Assembly: GCA_001296005.1 (NCBI GenBank)
Contig: LJHR01000037.1
Span: 62,001 to 126,000, forward strand
From: an alpha proteobacterium AAP38
Lineage (GTDB): Bacteria; Pseudomonadota; Alphaproteobacteria; Azospirillales; Azospirillaceae
Direction of reading: 5' to 3'
Length of the DNA stretch: 64,000 nt
Position 1 is the stretch's first letter, and the number at the start of each line of letters is the position of its first letter. The notes under the pieces are model-generated. The model did no database searches. It saw only the letters and a list, made by a program, of their open reading frames with translations, and had not been told where the DNA came from. This document shows, one piece after another, positions 18,436 to 31,684 of this stretch. A program made the position numbers and the translations under genes.

Positions 18436-18557
18436 CGTCATCCCGGCGGAAGCCGGGACCGAGGGGCCACAAGCACTGAGCTTTGCGCCCCTTTGATCGA
18501 AGCTGCCGACAGGTGGGGAGCTTGCCCTCCTGGGTCCCGACTTTCGTCGGGATGACG
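18436..18557. repeat. Inverted pair of REP-like elements next to the origin
   Basis: CGTCATCCCGGCGGAAGCCGGGACC at 18436-18460 and its inverted partner (CTGGGTCCCGACTTTCGTCGGGATGACG) ending at 18557, with a 70-bp spacer. The spacing matches the pair at 7514-7634, and the sequence between resembles the flank of the copy at 6967. It may also act as a terminator for the peptidase gene. Confidence 0.8.
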
Positions 18558-18740
18558 AAATGGGGCGCCTCGACCTCATTCAGAACACAGCTCCCCCTTT
18601 TTCCCTTCCCCTTGCCTCAAATTACCCTCAACCCCCTGTTCTGTTGATTCCATCCTTTCAGGATTCATTGTTCAGGGGTCGATTTTCCCAATTATCCCAA
18701 CCTCTTAATCCATCTTCCTGTGCCACGGCATACGGCTCTG

Positions 18741-19205
18741 TGTGCCATACCTTCTGAGTCCCTGTGCCAGATCACCCGGCTTCCTGTGCCATTCTGTCCG
18801 GATTGCTGCGCCATATCTCACGGCTCCACCCTCAATCCTGTGCCAGATTGCACGGCCACCCTCTCAAGCCTTTTTGAGAGTCTAGGGTTTCTGCGGTTTT
18901 CCGCCGGTTCTCTGTGACATATCTCACGGTTTTTCTGGGCTGTAACGCTCGTTCCTAGGACCGCACCCCCTGCCTGTGCCGGATTTCACGTGGGACGGAA
19001 TCCTTTCTGTGCCAGATCTCACGCTTCCGATTCTCCCGCGATTCTCCCGATTCCGCCATCTTGTGCCAAAGCTCACGCCCACCCTGCTCGGCATGCCCCG
19101 TTACTGTGCCGGAACGCACGGGCGAGAATCGGGGATTTTGGTCCTCTCTGTGCCATCTCGCACGGGTCCAATGATTCGCGCTTGATCCTGTGCCCCGGCA
19201 ATGTT
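18741..19205 (+). repeat. Iteron array (about 12 copies of a 17-mer), presumed replication origin
   Basis: Direct repeats with consensus TGTGCCANATCTCACGG start at 18741, 18763, 18785, 18807, 18839, 18913, 18975, 19008, 19062, 19105, 19149 and 19189. The first four are exactly 22 bp apart (two helical turns); later spacings are 32-74 bp. The best copies are 18807-18823, 18913-18929 and 19008-19024; the first and last are degenerate. All copies have the same orientation and lie directly upstream of a Rep_3-type initiator gene, the standard layout of an iteron-controlled plasmid origin. Confidence 0.92.
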
Positions 19206-19272: not shown

Positions 19273-20613
19273 ATGGCGGTGCAGGCGAATGCGGTGAAGG
19301 CGGAAATGGCCCGCCCGCGCGTGACGGGTAATGTGCTGGACCTGTCCACCGACCCCACCCTGCCCAAGCCGCGCACCCAGATTGAGGTGATGGAGACGGG
19401 CAACGGCCTGACCCTGGCAGATCGCAAGCTTTTCAATGTCTTGCTGGCCTATAGCTGGGACAAACTGTCCGATCCCGAGGCCCCCCTGCCCCCGTTCCGC
19501 GCGTCGACTGCCGACCTGCGCCGTGCCATCGGTGATGATACCGAAAGCAACAATGTCCGTCTGCGCCAATCCTTCGACCGGCTGATGCAGACCCTGGTCC
19601 GCTTCCCGTACTGGAGCGAGGCTGACCAGCAATTGAAGGAGGGTGGCTCCCCCTTGTTGGCCTTCCGCGCCCTGCCGCGCGGGTCGGGTTTCGCCGAATG
19701 GGAATTTCCGCCGAAGCTGCGCCCCCTGCTGGCCAAGCCCGGGGCTTGGGCGCGCATCCATCTGGCCATTTGCGCGCAGTTCTCCTCCAAATACTCCCTG
19801 GCACTGTATGAGCTGTTGAGCCTACGGGCAAACCTCCGAGAGCCGCGCTGGGAAGTGGCGCTGGATGATCTGCGCGAAAGCCTGGGCTGTGCCGACAAGA
19901 TGCCAAATTACGCGCATTTTCAGCGCCGCGTTCTGGACCCGGCGGTCAGCGAGATCAACGAACTGTCGGGTCTGGTCATCGATTATCAGGAACTGCGCTC
20001 CCACGGTCGCGGCCGCAAGGTCGAAAAGCTGATGTTCGATGTAAAGAAGAAATCGAACAGCGAACTGGTTGCCACCGCCCGCATCACTGAATTCGCTAAG
20101 GCCCCCGTGGGCCGCGCCACGCCCGCCAATGGCACGCGTGATCAGGATACGCCCGACCTGGAGGATGGCCGCACCGACCGCGAGCGTGGCCCGGCCGGCA
20201 CGCTCGGCCTTATTCAGCGCGTGTCGCTGGCCGTGATTGAGGAACTGGTGGCGCAATATCCCGACGTCGATATGCAGACCGCCATTTTCAGTTGGGCCGA
20301 ATGGGCCATGCGACAGAAGGAACCCTGCCGCAACCCGTCCGCCGCCTTCCGCGCCTGGCTGGAGAAACTGCACCCTGCCGTTTCCGCTCCCGTCCGCCTG
20401 ACGCCGGAAGGCTCTGAACCCCCTGCCCTCTCCCCCGCCGCCCAACGCGCCCTGCAATGGTTGACCGGCGAACCCTACGCCGTCCGCGCCAAATGGTTCC
20501 GCAAGGCCCAGACCCTGGGCGCTCCCGACATGCGTGCCGCCACCGCCCCGGAAAACATTGGCCGCTGGGTGGGGCTGGTGGCGGATGAGGTGGTGAAGGG
20601 CCTGCGGGTGTAA
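19273..20613 (+). CDS. repA: Rep_3-type iteron-binding replication initiator
   Basis: About 446 residues from ATG 19273. Two winged-helix-like domains are visible. The first runs from LADRKLFNVLLAYSWDKL to about residue 150. The second has SSKYSLALYELLSLRANLR, a W-V-LDDLRESLGC segment, a YAHFQRRVLDPAVSEINELS helix and GRKVEKLMFDVKKK, all hallmarks of the Rep_3 initiator family. The C-terminal 150 residues are an extra, less conserved part with an IEELVAQYP helix. It should bind the iterons upstream and melt the origin. The gene marks the window as part of an autonomously replicating secondary replicon. Confidence 0.88.
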   Translation: MAVQANAVKAEMARPRVTGNVLDLSTDPTLPKPRTQIEVMETGNGLTLADRKLFNVLLAYSWDKLSDPEAPLPPFRASTADLRRAIGDDTESNNVRLRQSFDRLMQTLVRFPYWSEADQQLKEGGSPLLAFRALPRGSGFAEWEFPPKLRPLLAKPGAWARIHLAICAQFSSKYSLALYELLSLRANLREPRWEVALDDLRESLGCADKMPNYAHFQRRVLDPAVSEINELSGLVIDYQELRSHGRGRKVEKLMFDVKKKSNSELVATARITEFAKAPVGRATPANGTRDQDTPDLEDGRTDRERGPAGTLGLIQRVSLAVIEELVAQYPDVDMQTAIFSWAEWAMRQKEPCRNPSAAFRAWLEKLHPAVSAPVRLTPEGSEPPALSPAAQRALQWLTGEPYAVRAKWFRKAQTLGAPDMRAATAPENIGRWVGLVADEVVKGLRV

Positions 20614-20658: not shown

Positions 20659-20684
20659 GTCATCCCGGCAGAAGCCGGGATGAC
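20659..20684. terminator. REP-like hairpin between rep and parB
   Basis: GTCATCCCGGC and GCCGGGATGAC form an 11-bp stem with an AGAA loop, in the gap between the convergent rep and parB genes. Its sequence is that of the REP family elsewhere in the window. It could stop transcription from both sides, though it lacks a clean T tract. Confidence 0.55.
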
Positions 20685-20729: not shown

Positions 20730-21668
20730 TCACCCTGCCAGCAGCGTCTCCAACTGCTGCGCATAGCCCGCCAGCCGCGCCTTCAGCGCCTCCAGCTTGG
20801 CCCGCTCATCGGCGCGCAGCTTGGCGACACCCTTGTCCGCCACCGCCTCGATCCCTGCCGACAGGCTCTCTTCCAACTTGGGCAAGCCGGCGATGAACTT
20901 CTTTGCTGTAACATTTCTCACGGGTGCCTTGGCCGTGGCGGGATCACCGGCCCGTTGCAGCTTGGCGCGGTATTCCCGCGCCTCCCGTGCCGTCAACTCG
21001 CCCTTCTTGACCTTGAGCCATAGGCTCAATTGGTCAACCTCCTCCATGCGCGCCAGTTCCAGCAGAACCGCCTTGGGCACGTCATTGTGTGATGTCACAC
21101 AGTCGGTGCGGATGGTCGCATGCAGGCGCAGCAGGGTCAGGGTGGTATTCACCTCTGTCCGCGACCGGCCCAGCAGGTCGCCCACCGCCTCCTGATTATA
21201 TTCATGCGTCTCAATCAGGCGGCGGATGCCCTCTGCCTCTTCAACGGGCGACAGATCCACGCGCTGCAAATTCTCGATCAGGGCGATCTGATCGGTATTG
21301 GCATCGGTGGGCAGGATGTGGGCCATGATCTTGGTCAGGCCCGCCATCCCCGCCGCCCGCCAGCGCCGCTCGCCCGCCACCAGCATAAAGCGCTTCGGCT
21401 CCGTTGGGTGGGCCTGCACCAGGATCGGGGATAATTGTCCCACCTCGCGCAGGGAGAAGCTTAGTGCCTGCAGCTCCTCCTCATCGAAATGCCGACGGGG
21501 CTGGTTGGGATTTGGCTCAATGTCGTTCAGACGCAGCAGCACCGTATCGCGCAGACCATCCGCTGTCCCGAAAATCAGGTCGGCGCCGGGCCGGTCCAGA
21601 CTGTCCCCGATGGATTTCGCCACTGCTGCCGGCTGCGGGCTTGCGGGCTTGCGCCAGTTCTTAACCAT
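20730..21668 (-). CDS. parB: ParB partition protein
   Basis: 312 residues. The N-terminal ParB/Spo0J domain has IEPNPNQPRRHFDEEELQ, the CTPase-type motif GERRWRA near 106-112 and the arginine-rich ENLQRVDLSPVEEA. A helix-turn-helix follows (EAVGDLLGRSRTEVNTTLTLL). The C-terminal part (about 225-312) is helical and Ala/Lys-rich. It is co-transcribed with parA, overlapping it by eight bases. It should bind parS-like sites; palindromes at 22731, 22799 and 21086 are candidates, the last inside this gene. Confidence 0.92.
   Translation of the reverse strand: MVKNWRKPASPQPAAVAKSIGDSLDRPGADLIFGTADGLRDTVLLRLNDIEPNPNQPRRHFDEEELQALSFSLREVGQLSPILVQAHPTEPKRFMLVAGERRWRAAGMAGLTKIMAHILPTDANTDQIALIENLQRVDLSPVEEAEGIRRLIETHEYNQEAVGDLLGRSRTEVNTTLTLLRLHATIRTDCVTSHNDVPKAVLLELARMEEVDQLSLWLKVKKGELTAREAREYRAKLQRAGDPATAKAPVRNVTAKKFIAGLPKLEESLSAGIEAVADKGVAKLRADERAKLEALKARLAGYAQQLETLLAG
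20907..20923 (+). repeat. Iteron-like 17-mer inside parB
   Basis: TGTAACATTTCTCACGG matches the strong iteron TGTGCCATATCTCACGG at 14 of 17 positions, with the whole 3' block TCTCACGG intact. It lies within the parB coding region, outside the main array. Confidence 0.5.
21086..21101. promoter_or_regulatory. Near-palindrome TGTGTGATGTCACACA inside parB
   Basis: One centre mismatch from the perfect palindrome TGTGTGACGTCACACA found twice before parA. Its 16-bp length matches classic parS sites. It is a candidate centromere-like ParB site or a secondary operator. Confidence 0.6.
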
Positions 21669-22611
21669 TGACGATCTCCTGCGCCAGGGTGCGGTAAACC
21701 CCGATCGGGTGGCTCTTGGGCAGCATTTTCAGCGGGACGGCCCCGGCATAGGTGGCCTGGTCGATCTCGGTCGATCGCGGCACCGGCTGGAAGATGCGGG
21801 CCTTGTCGCCCAGGCTTTCCTGCAGGTCCGACAGCACCTGCTGCTCCACTGCGAAATTGCGATTGAACATGGTGGGCAGTACGCCCAGCACCTTCAGGCT
21901 GGGATTCTGCCGCCGCTGGATCTTCGACACTGTGTCAAAAATCAAGGGGATGCCGCGCACATCATAGCGGCTGGCCTTGGTCGGGATCAGCAGATAATCG
22001 GCGGCAATCAGGGCGGTGACCGTGATCAGGGCCAGTTCGGGCGGGCAGTCGATGACGATGTAATCATAATCGCGCAGCACCTCCGACAGCTTCTCGCGTA
22101 GCACATAGCGCCCGTCATCGGGGTCGAGCAGGATCTTGATCTGCGCCTCTGCCAGGGCAATAGTACAGGGCAGCATGTCATAGCCGTCGCACTTCACGAT
22201 GGCCTGATGGATGCCCGTCTGCCCGAACAGCACATCCTCCAGCCCGCCCTTGCGGTCCTGCACCTCTAGCGGGTCAAGGCCCGATCCCTCGGTGGCCGTG
22301 GCCTGCTGGTCGGCATCCACGATCAGCACCTTCTTGCCTAGTTCTCCCAGCGCGTAGCCCAGGTTCAGGGTTGTGGTGGTCTTGCCCACGCCGCCTTTCT
22401 GGTTGGCGACGGCGATGATGCAGGCCGTACGCTGGCTGGCGGCGGCCAGGAACTCCGCTACCCGCACCGGCAGCCGTTCGGCGCCCGATTCCCAGCGGCT
22501 GATGGTGGCGTTATCGTACTTTCGGCCCAGCTTGGCATTCACCCAGGCGGCAAAGGCGGCCTGGCTTTCACCACGGCTTTCACGAAATTGGCGCAGTTCA
22601 TCGGGGGTCAT
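21661..22611 (-). CDS. parA: ParA partition ATPase with N-terminal helix-turn-helix
   Basis: 316 residues. An XRE-like helix-turn-helix spans about 1-60 (RGESQAAFAAWVNAKLG, NATISRWESGAERLP). The ParA ATPase follows, with a deviant Walker A KGGVGKTTT near 73-82, DADQQAT, and a Walker B-like IVIDCPPELAL near 150. ParA proteins with a DNA-binding N-terminus (P1/P7 type Ia, or RepA-like) repress their own operon, consistent with the palindromes just upstream. It works with ParB to segregate the replicon. Confidence 0.92.
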   Translation of the reverse strand: MTPDELRQFRESRGESQAAFAAWVNAKLGRKYDNATISRWESGAERLPVRVAEFLAAASQRTACIIAVANQKGGVGKTTTTLNLGYALGELGKKVLIVDADQQATATEGSGLDPLEVQDRKGGLEDVLFGQTGIHQAIVKCDGYDMLPCTIALAEAQIKILLDPDDGRYVLREKLSEVLRDYDYIVIDCPPELALITVTALIAADYLLIPTKASRYDVRGIPLIFDTVSKIQRRQNPSLKVLGVLPTMFNRNFAVEQQVLSDLQESLGDKARIFQPVPRSTEIDQATYAGAVPLKMLPKSHPIGVYRTLAQEIVNG

Positions 22612-22939
22612 GGCACCGGTCCGGGGAGGGGCATTTGAGACTTTGAGAATTGTCTCAAATCTCGTCCCGCGTCAATCACCGAACGCAGCCACGACAGGAA
22701 TTCCGTCATGACGCCGGCCTGCACGGGTCCCTGTGTGACGTCACACAGGCCCCTTACTGTGCCAAACTGCACGGGTACATCATGCCAATCCCTGCCCTTG
22801 TGTGACGTCACACAGGTTCGGCTGTGCCACCCCCGTTGCCCGGCCCGATCCTGTCGTTTGGCCCCGAAACTTCAACCGTTTCGGCTGTCCCCGCCTGCCA
22901 TCCTGAACCTAACGAACAGCACCCGCCGGGGAGAGCATC
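22612..22939. promoter_or_regulatory. parA control region with two 16-18-bp palindromes and one iteron
   Basis: This 328-bp divergent gap between parA and the ornithine aminotransferase gene holds two palindromes: CTGTGTGACGTCACACAG (22731-22748, 18 bp perfect) and TGTGTGACGTCACACA (22799-22814, 16 bp perfect). Between them is an iteron copy, TGTGCCAAACTGCACGG (22758-22774). A GCACGGG fragment also occurs at 22721. These are candidate ParA operators or ParB centromere sites. The iteron suggests that replication and partition are physically coupled. Confidence 0.8.
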
Positions 22940-30265: not shown

Positions 30266-31684
30266 CTACGGCCCGCCCACCCGCCGCAGCTTGACTTCCG
30301 CATCGTCCAGGCCCGACAGCACCAGCAGGCCGCCCTCGTCCAGCGTGTGGCGCTGGATGGAGCGCAAGGCCGAGAGGAAGGCCTGTTCGCGCTGCATGAT
30401 GTCGCGCGGGCAGGCCATCATGGTGCTGGCGGCGGAACGGCTGGCGATGGTGATGCCGTTGGCGTCGGCGCGGAAGCGGGCCACGAAGCGGTTGCATCCC
30501 GCCTGTCCCGTCACGTCGCCCGCCGCCGTGAAGCGCATGGCGGGCGCATTGTCGGCTGGCAGGTCCTTGCCGTTCAGGGACACGGCCTGCCATTCGCCCT
30601 GCGCCAGGAACGTGGCCGCCGACCCGCCGCAGCCTTGCAGGGTCTGGCCCTCCACCTCCACCCGCACCCGGTCGGGCAGGGGGGTGGCGGTGCGCTCATC
30701 CAGGCAGGTACCGGGATTGATGGTCACCCTCAAATCACCATCGCCCAGCCTTCCCTCATAGCGATAGCCATCGGCCAGCAACTGTCGCTCGGGCAAGGAA
30801 ATCCGCGCGATCTGCGACGTTCCTGTGCCAAATCTCACGAGGTCGAGGCGGTCCGTGCCGATGCGCAGGGTCCAGCCGGGGCTGTATCCGCGCGCCTCAT
30901 ACTGGCCCGGCGGGCTGGTTTCGGTGAAATCGGCCTGGGCACAGGCGACCTCTGTCTCGGGGCCCAGCGACAGGCGGGCATTGCGCCCCTTGCTCCAGAA
31001 CTCGATCTCCCGCCCGTCCGCCGTCTCCCCGGTATAGCGGGCACCCGATGCCGACAGCGCCCGTTCCAGCCGGTGGGTCTGCCCGTCAACGGTCAGGTCC
31101 AGGCCGCCTTCCTCATACAGCGCCACCACCTCGCGCTCCCCGCACTGAAACGGCACGCCAGGTGGGCGCGGGGCCGCTTCTGCCCCGGATGCGGGGGCGG
31201 GTGGTGCCGGGGGCACGGGCGGCGGTGCGGCGGCGCGGGTCAGCCAGAGCGTGCCCAGATCATGCAGGCCCGTGCCGGGATCGATGACATGCGCGCTCTG
31301 GATGGACCAGAGGGGCCGTCCGCCCGCGTCCTGGATGATGGCGCGCACGGCATAACGTTCGCCGGCCTTCAGCTTGGCCGCCACCGCCGTCAGGCGGAAG
31401 CGCAGCGGCACCTGCTGTCCCGCCAGATCGATGCTCTGCCGGGCCAGCACGGGGGCAGCGGGATCGGCGGCCATGCCCGGTTCGGCCAGGGTGACCAGCA
31501 GCGTGGCACCGGCCGGCAGGGCGATGCGCTCGCGATAGGACAACTCACCGATGATGGTGACAAGCGGTCGGGCGGTGGATGAACTGGCCGGAACCGGCGC
31601 TGCCAGGGCAGGGGGCAGGGCGGCGGGCAGGATCAGGCAGGCCCCCGCTGTCAACAATGCCATCCCATAGCAGCTGCGCCGCAT
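30266..31684 (-). CDS. Multidomain envelope protein: YbaY-like, MliC and META (HslJ-like) domains
   Basis: 472 residues with a signal peptide (to about residue 28). Residues about 40-150 resemble YbaY/YscW-type lipoprotein domains (ALPAGATLLVTLAEPGM, VPLRFRLTA). After a Pro-rich linker, 175-235 resembles MliC, the C-type lysozyme inhibitor (PFQCGEREVVALYEEGG, then EIEFWSKGRNARLSL). A middle region at 240-345 follows (ARGYSPGWTLRIGTDRL). The C-terminal META domain (about 355-472) has WQAVSLNGKDLP, GQAGCNRFVARF and MMACPRDIMQREQAFLSAL. It is predicted periplasmic, in cell-envelope stress or lysozyme resistance. It converges on the secreted-protein pair. Confidence 0.85.
   Translation of the reverse strand: MRRSCYGMALLTAGACLILPAALPPALAAPVPASSSTARPLVTIIGELSYRERIALPAGATLLVTLAEPGMAADPAAPVLARQSIDLAGQQVPLRFRLTAVAAKLKAGERYAVRAIIQDAGGRPLWSIQSAHVIDPGTGLHDLGTLWLTRAAAPPPVPPAPPAPASGAEAAPRPPGVPFQCGEREVVALYEEGGLDLTVDGQTHRLERALSASGARYTGETADGREIEFWSKGRNARLSLGPETEVACAQADFTETSPPGQYEARGYSPGWTLRIGTDRLDLVRFGTGTSQIARISLPERQLLADGYRYEGRLGDGDLRVTINPGTCLDERTATPLPDRVRVEVEGQTLQGCGGSAATFLAQGEWQAVSLNGKDLPADNAPAMRFTAAGDVTGQAGCNRFVARFRADANGITIASRSAASTMMACPRDIMQREQAFLSALRSIQRHTLDEGGLLVLSGLDDAEVKLRRVGGP
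30824..30840 (+). repeat. Isolated iteron copy inside the META-domain gene
   Basis: TGTGCCAAATCTCACGA matches the origin iteron consensus at every fixed position except the last base. It lies about 11.6 kb from the array, in the same orientation, within coding sequence. See the related finding. Confidence 0.75.

Follow-up and report, generated by a model that had tools for sequence, protein, structure and literature searches.

The question raised by this locus is why a copy of a replication origin repeat should lie within the coding region of an envelope gene, 11.7 kb beyond the last origin iteron (19149), and whether it is kept there as DNA or only as a by-product of the protein sequence. 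The window analysed here (the whole stretch of 64,000 nt) is part of contig C31 in a Niveispirillum-like genome and contains the origin of a Rep_3 iteron replicon. Twelve iterons identified by matrix and consensus (18719–19164, all on the + strand, starting at 18719, 18741, 18763, 18785, 18807, 18839, 18913, 18975, 19008, 19062, 19105 and 19149) lie as direct repeats of the same orientation upstream of rep (19273–20613, + strand), which encodes a Rep_3-family initiator of 446 aa (Rep3_N/WH1, 2.1e-13; Rep3_C/WH2, 8.8e-17), and this layout is the same in eight species. The ori-rep segment is bracketed by a near-identical 22-nt repeat, GTCATCCCGGCRGAAGCCGGGA, at 18437–18458 and 20659–20680. A sequence search of the PDB with Rep returned no relative at E 0.001. 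Rep of the window shares 98% identity with its counterpart on the N. cyanobacteriorum TH16 replicon NZ_CP025613.1 (G006:C3, 1,003,851 bp). The only tRNA found on that 1.0-Mb replicon, a tRNA-Leu(UAA) at G006:C3:528809-528894, is also the only copy detected in the N. cyanobacteriorum genome, so that the Rep_3 iteron replicon is likely to be a chromid.

The first-pass annotation had described the distal site as a near-perfect iteron, and the match proved to be better than it had stated. The core TGTGCCAAATCTCACG (30824–30839, + strand) shows no mismatch to the degenerate consensus TGTGCCANATCTCACG across its 16 positions. The sole departure is at position 17 (30840), where the distal iteron has A and 60 of the 77 origin iterons have G, and the TTCC directly 5' of the core also agrees with the iteron flank. 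Scored with a matrix derived from 65 distinct iterons in the origins of eight Niveispirillum genomes, each a species, the site reaches 28.1 bits, which exceeds most origin iterons.

Chance expectations were derived from a third-order background model, which for 1.0 Mb predicts 14.3 matches of at least 12 bits and 3.2 of at least 15 bits, with 15 and 4 observed, respectively. Under this model, matches as good as the distal iteron are expected 1.7e-5 times per 64 kb, 2.7e-4 times per 1.0-Mb replicon and 1.5e-3 times over the 5.78-Mb genome, in which exact TGTGCCAAATCTCACG occurs once only, at the distal site. On the N. cyanobacteriorum replicon (1,003,851 bp), where the matrix was used (the large chromosome was searched for iterons with patterns), the orthologous site at 153,265 also scores 28.1 bits and stands alone outside ori/par, the best other match there being 19.2 bits. 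The earlier statement that a match this good is unlikely to arise by chance is upheld by the expectation per 64 kb and by nucleotide conservation in five species.

This conservation is seen in a gene that does belong to the cell envelope, as had been proposed: the ORF at 30266–31684 (- strand, 472 aa) encodes a lipoprotein-like protein with YscW/YbaY-like, MliC and META domains, and the iteron with its flank spans codons 283–288 (V R F G T G). A full host gene is present in five congeneric species (protein identity to the window copy 93, 68, 68 and 66%), a small sample in which all five keep the site at the DNA level; the gene in G005 is a fragment that stops short of the site and is outside this count. 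A search of genome contigs for further orthologues of the host gene returned only the four known relatives. The site occurs as TGTGCCAAATCTCACG in two species, as TGTGACAGATCTCACG in two and as TGTAACAGATCTCACG in one, with scores of 28.1, 28.1, 26.2, 26.2 and 19.5 bits. Over it, the codons read CTC GTG AGA TYT GKB ACA GGA ACG (codons 282–289), so that the six codons with an invariant amino acid (CTC, GTG, AGA, ACA, GGA and ACG) are identical in 5/5 species, while the residues between them vary (F/S and G/V). Third positions are invariant in 7 of these 8 codons, as against 38% gene-wide, and three of the codons retained are rare, AGA supplying 0.7% of Arg codons, GGA 4.9% of Gly codons and ACA 6.7% of Thr codons.

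Two comparisons based on about 60 other shared genes each gave a probability of ~0.004 that the six codons would be retained, and when windows are ranked by synonymous invariance the site is placed 92nd of 21,556 (0.43%). Taken alone, a conservation p-value of this size (~0.004) is modest. The site does not stand out among the longest stretches of unchanged DNA in the host gene, because degenerate positions interrupt the run, and we consider the synonymous-codon test, not block length, to be the right one. Species differ at the site only at iteron positions 4, 5 and 8. Two of these, 5 and 8, where the changes alter the amino acid, also vary among origin iterons, position 8 freely and position 5 sometimes (A in 4/77). 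The copy in G007 has A at position 4, which occurs in 0/77 origin iterons, and may for this reason be weaker as an iteron.

Nucleotide conservation within a coding region can arise from any cis element, and the conserved word might serve the host gene itself, as a regulator site, an RNA element or an antisense promoter, its likeness to an iteron being coincidental. The conserved DNA at the site would fit such an element, but the positions conserved are the iteron's own, including the upstream TTCC, the word recurs in an unrelated gene (parB), and it would be odd for the gene to be regulated from a position ~840 bp inside it. We regard this explanation as very improbable. We give still less credence to a neutral relic of a larger ancestral origin or of a transposed iteron: iterons of the par locus do stand between ori and the distal site, but a neutral copy would have lost its synonymous positions over this divergence.

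More weight is due to the idea that a chance match has been fixed by protein and codon constraint without any iteron function, as V, R, T, G and T are invariant residues at the site. Genus-wide pattern searches for more isolated iterons, which included the primary chromosome, bear on this point. Two other strong matches outside ori/par were followed up, one in a gene for an ogt-like methyltransferase (MGMT, 25.6 bits) and one in a TonB-receptor gene (25.8 bits). Since ~0.01–0.06 such matches would be expected per genome, their occurrence in the genus favours chance, and the null for the whole genome may be a little too optimistic. The MGMT match is common to three close species (G000:C7:88391-88406; G006:C1:2674235-2674250, on a large chromosome-size contig; G005:C859:3183-3198; 24.3–25.6 bits) and is lost in G007 at 84% amino acid identity. 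The TonB match is found in two close species (G010:C12:95831, on the contig that carries ori and 104 kb away from it; G002:C40:23067).

In orthologues with 63–84% (MGMT) and 62–78% (TonB) protein identity, these matches fall to between -13 and 11 bits. The intragenic control matches thus decay over a divergence at which the lipoprotein site, at lower protein identity, still holds 19.5–26.2 bits. Being absent from the orthologues of relatives, both were rejected as further conserved isolated iterons, and they appear to be chance or lineage-specific, the MGMT match perhaps a lineage-specific chromosomal Rep site. On the primary chromosome, the pattern search found no counterpart of the distal site that is conserved throughout the genus. 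Protein sequence and codon usage alone would produce the score of the distal site with a probability of only 1e-8 to 3e-5, and its rare codons persist even though the residues between them vary. Multiplying the chance of the match by the invariance rank gives ~1e-6 for match and retention together. For these reasons a fixed chance match seems to us rather improbable, and the comparison supports the interpretation of the site as a genuine distant iteron. It is an origin-iteron word that lies outside the origin on the same replicon and above background, and judging from its synonymous invariance in five species and the decay of the controls it is apparently maintained by selection.

The distal site is not the only iteron outside the origin, a point that the first-pass annotation had missed. 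Between it and ori lies a par locus with parB (20730–21668, - strand; ParB_N, HTH_ParB) and parA (21661–22611, - strand; AAA_31, with an N-terminal HTH). An iteron of 22.5 bits upstream of parA (22758–22773, + strand) is placed between two copies of a parS-like palindrome, TGTGTGACGTCACACA (22732–22747 and 22799–22814, putative parS); its counterpart scores 28.1 bits in G006, and there are two copies in G009 and three in G001. A weak iteron, TGTAACATTTCTCACG (20907–20922, + strand, 15.3 bits), is located within parB, in the region of the C-terminal linker. It scores 15.3–17.6 bits in four species, within a fast-evolving stretch of parB, and is absent from parB of G001, G002 and G010. The iteron word reads V-R/K-x-V-T in parB and in the lipoprotein gene alike. 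G007 and G009 have an extra strong iteron past the 3' end of parB. Also within parB are a further palindrome, TGTGTGATGTCACACA (21086–21101, putative parS), and the palindrome TTGAGCC-ATA-GGCTCAA (21022–21040), which lies in one of the replicon windows with the highest synonymous conservation (rank 6).

Together with the iterons in parB and upstream of parA, the distal site in the lipoprotein gene belongs to a par-linked set. In G009 (N. lacus) ori is inverted and lies 16 kb from par, but the distance from par to the distal site is 8.2 kb, compared to 8.1 kb in the window. The distal site thus travels with par and not with ori.

Such a linkage could mean that the site serves partition, either because Rep at par-linked iterons marks or shapes the zone covered by ParB or because spreading ParB displaces Rep, so coupling segregation to replication. 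Every non-origin iteron sits in or beside par, that upstream of parA is flanked by parS-like palindromes, and the spacing from par to the site is unchanged where ori is rearranged. There is also a precedent, as ParB2 of V. cholerae can cover an RctB-binding 39-mer adjoining parS2 and so relieve its inhibition (PMC3688505). Yet the nearest parS-like palindrome is 8 kb from the distal site (~4.5 kb in G007) and none adjoins it, and linkage to par may be mere gene neighbourhood. We consider a role in partition unlikely, though less so than a fixed chance match.

What is shown, namely a match in excess of chance expectation that is conserved at the nucleotide level and linked to par, points instead to a functional external iteron that would bind the Rep_3 initiator and be selected as DNA, most likely for negative control in cis, a reading that we hold to be on balance probable. 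According to this proposal, the Rep_3 initiator of the megareplicon would bind the distal iteron inside the envelope gene, and selection on DNA would keep the site despite its coding location; the copying machinery probably reads an envelope gene as a control site. The distal site would act in cis, being one of several par-linked sites at which Rep would restrain firing of the origin. Titration or handcuffing is the class of mechanism that we favour as possible. Rep at the distal and par-linked sites could bridge to Rep at the origin by looping or handcuffing, and these sites, being duplicated early, could provide extra titration sites just after initiation. We prefer bridging in cis to pure titration, a step that we infer because one extra site among ~14 would titrate little Rep. 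It is also conceivable, if rather doubtful, that the iterons in parB and in the envelope lipoprotein gene form a dispersed replication-segregation module that shapes protein sequence, with the MGMT site as a separately evolved crtS-like counterpart.

If the site is an external iteron, the host gene in new lineages would be expected to keep GTGAGATNTGNNACA. This type of replicon does not depend on the site, since three congeneric species with the same Rep that are without the host gene show no equivalent site (G001, scanned over 180 kb; G002 and G010, searched by pattern) and the ori contig of the sister genus, whose iteron word differs (TATGYGTTTTCTCGCCA), yielded no isolated copy of that word.

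Large replicons of Alphaproteobacteria are usually of the repABC type, and a review describes iteron origins in this class as confined to small plasmids (PMC6090056). In contrast, the 1.0-Mb Niveispirillum replicon runs on a Rep_3 iteron origin together with conserved iterons outside it. External initiator sites of iteron chromids have been little studied outside Vibrio, and the distal site offers a precise, recodable 16-bp target for the question of how an origin of plasmid type is tamed to replicate once per cycle.

Several known systems resemble the distal site in part. The datA and DARS loci of E. coli also bind the initiator away from the origin and adjust initiation, but they are specific for DnaA and linked to ATP, and Rep_3 initiators are not known to be switched by ATP. 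In the Rep_3-type plasmids F and P1, inc or handcuffing iterons outside the core origin exert copy control through a winged-helix Rep. These arrays adjoin the origin or rep, however, and do not lie kilobases away within another coding gene. A checkpoint resembling crtS of Vibrio had also been considered. Like the distal site, crtS stands alone at a distance from the origin and is proposed to work through the initiator of the secondary replicon. However, crtS sits on the primary chromosome, differs from normal iterons and promotes initiation, whereas the distal site is an ordinary, near-consensus iteron and shares the 1.0-Mb secondary replicon with Rep and the other iterons. A checkpoint of the crtS kind thus finds no support, as the distal site is on the replicon of ori and, being close to it, is copied almost together with it.

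The nearest known parallel is with the external iterons of V. cholerae chromosome II, which are ~40 kb away from its origin, are bound by RctB and reduce the origin copy number (PMC3937223). In both cases an ordinary initiator-site word is found outside the origin, on the same secondary replicon, at an early duplicated position. The Niveispirillum case differs in that it involves a Rep_3 initiator in an alphaproteobacterium and a single strong site in an envelope gene together with par-linked sites, to which binding is predicted.
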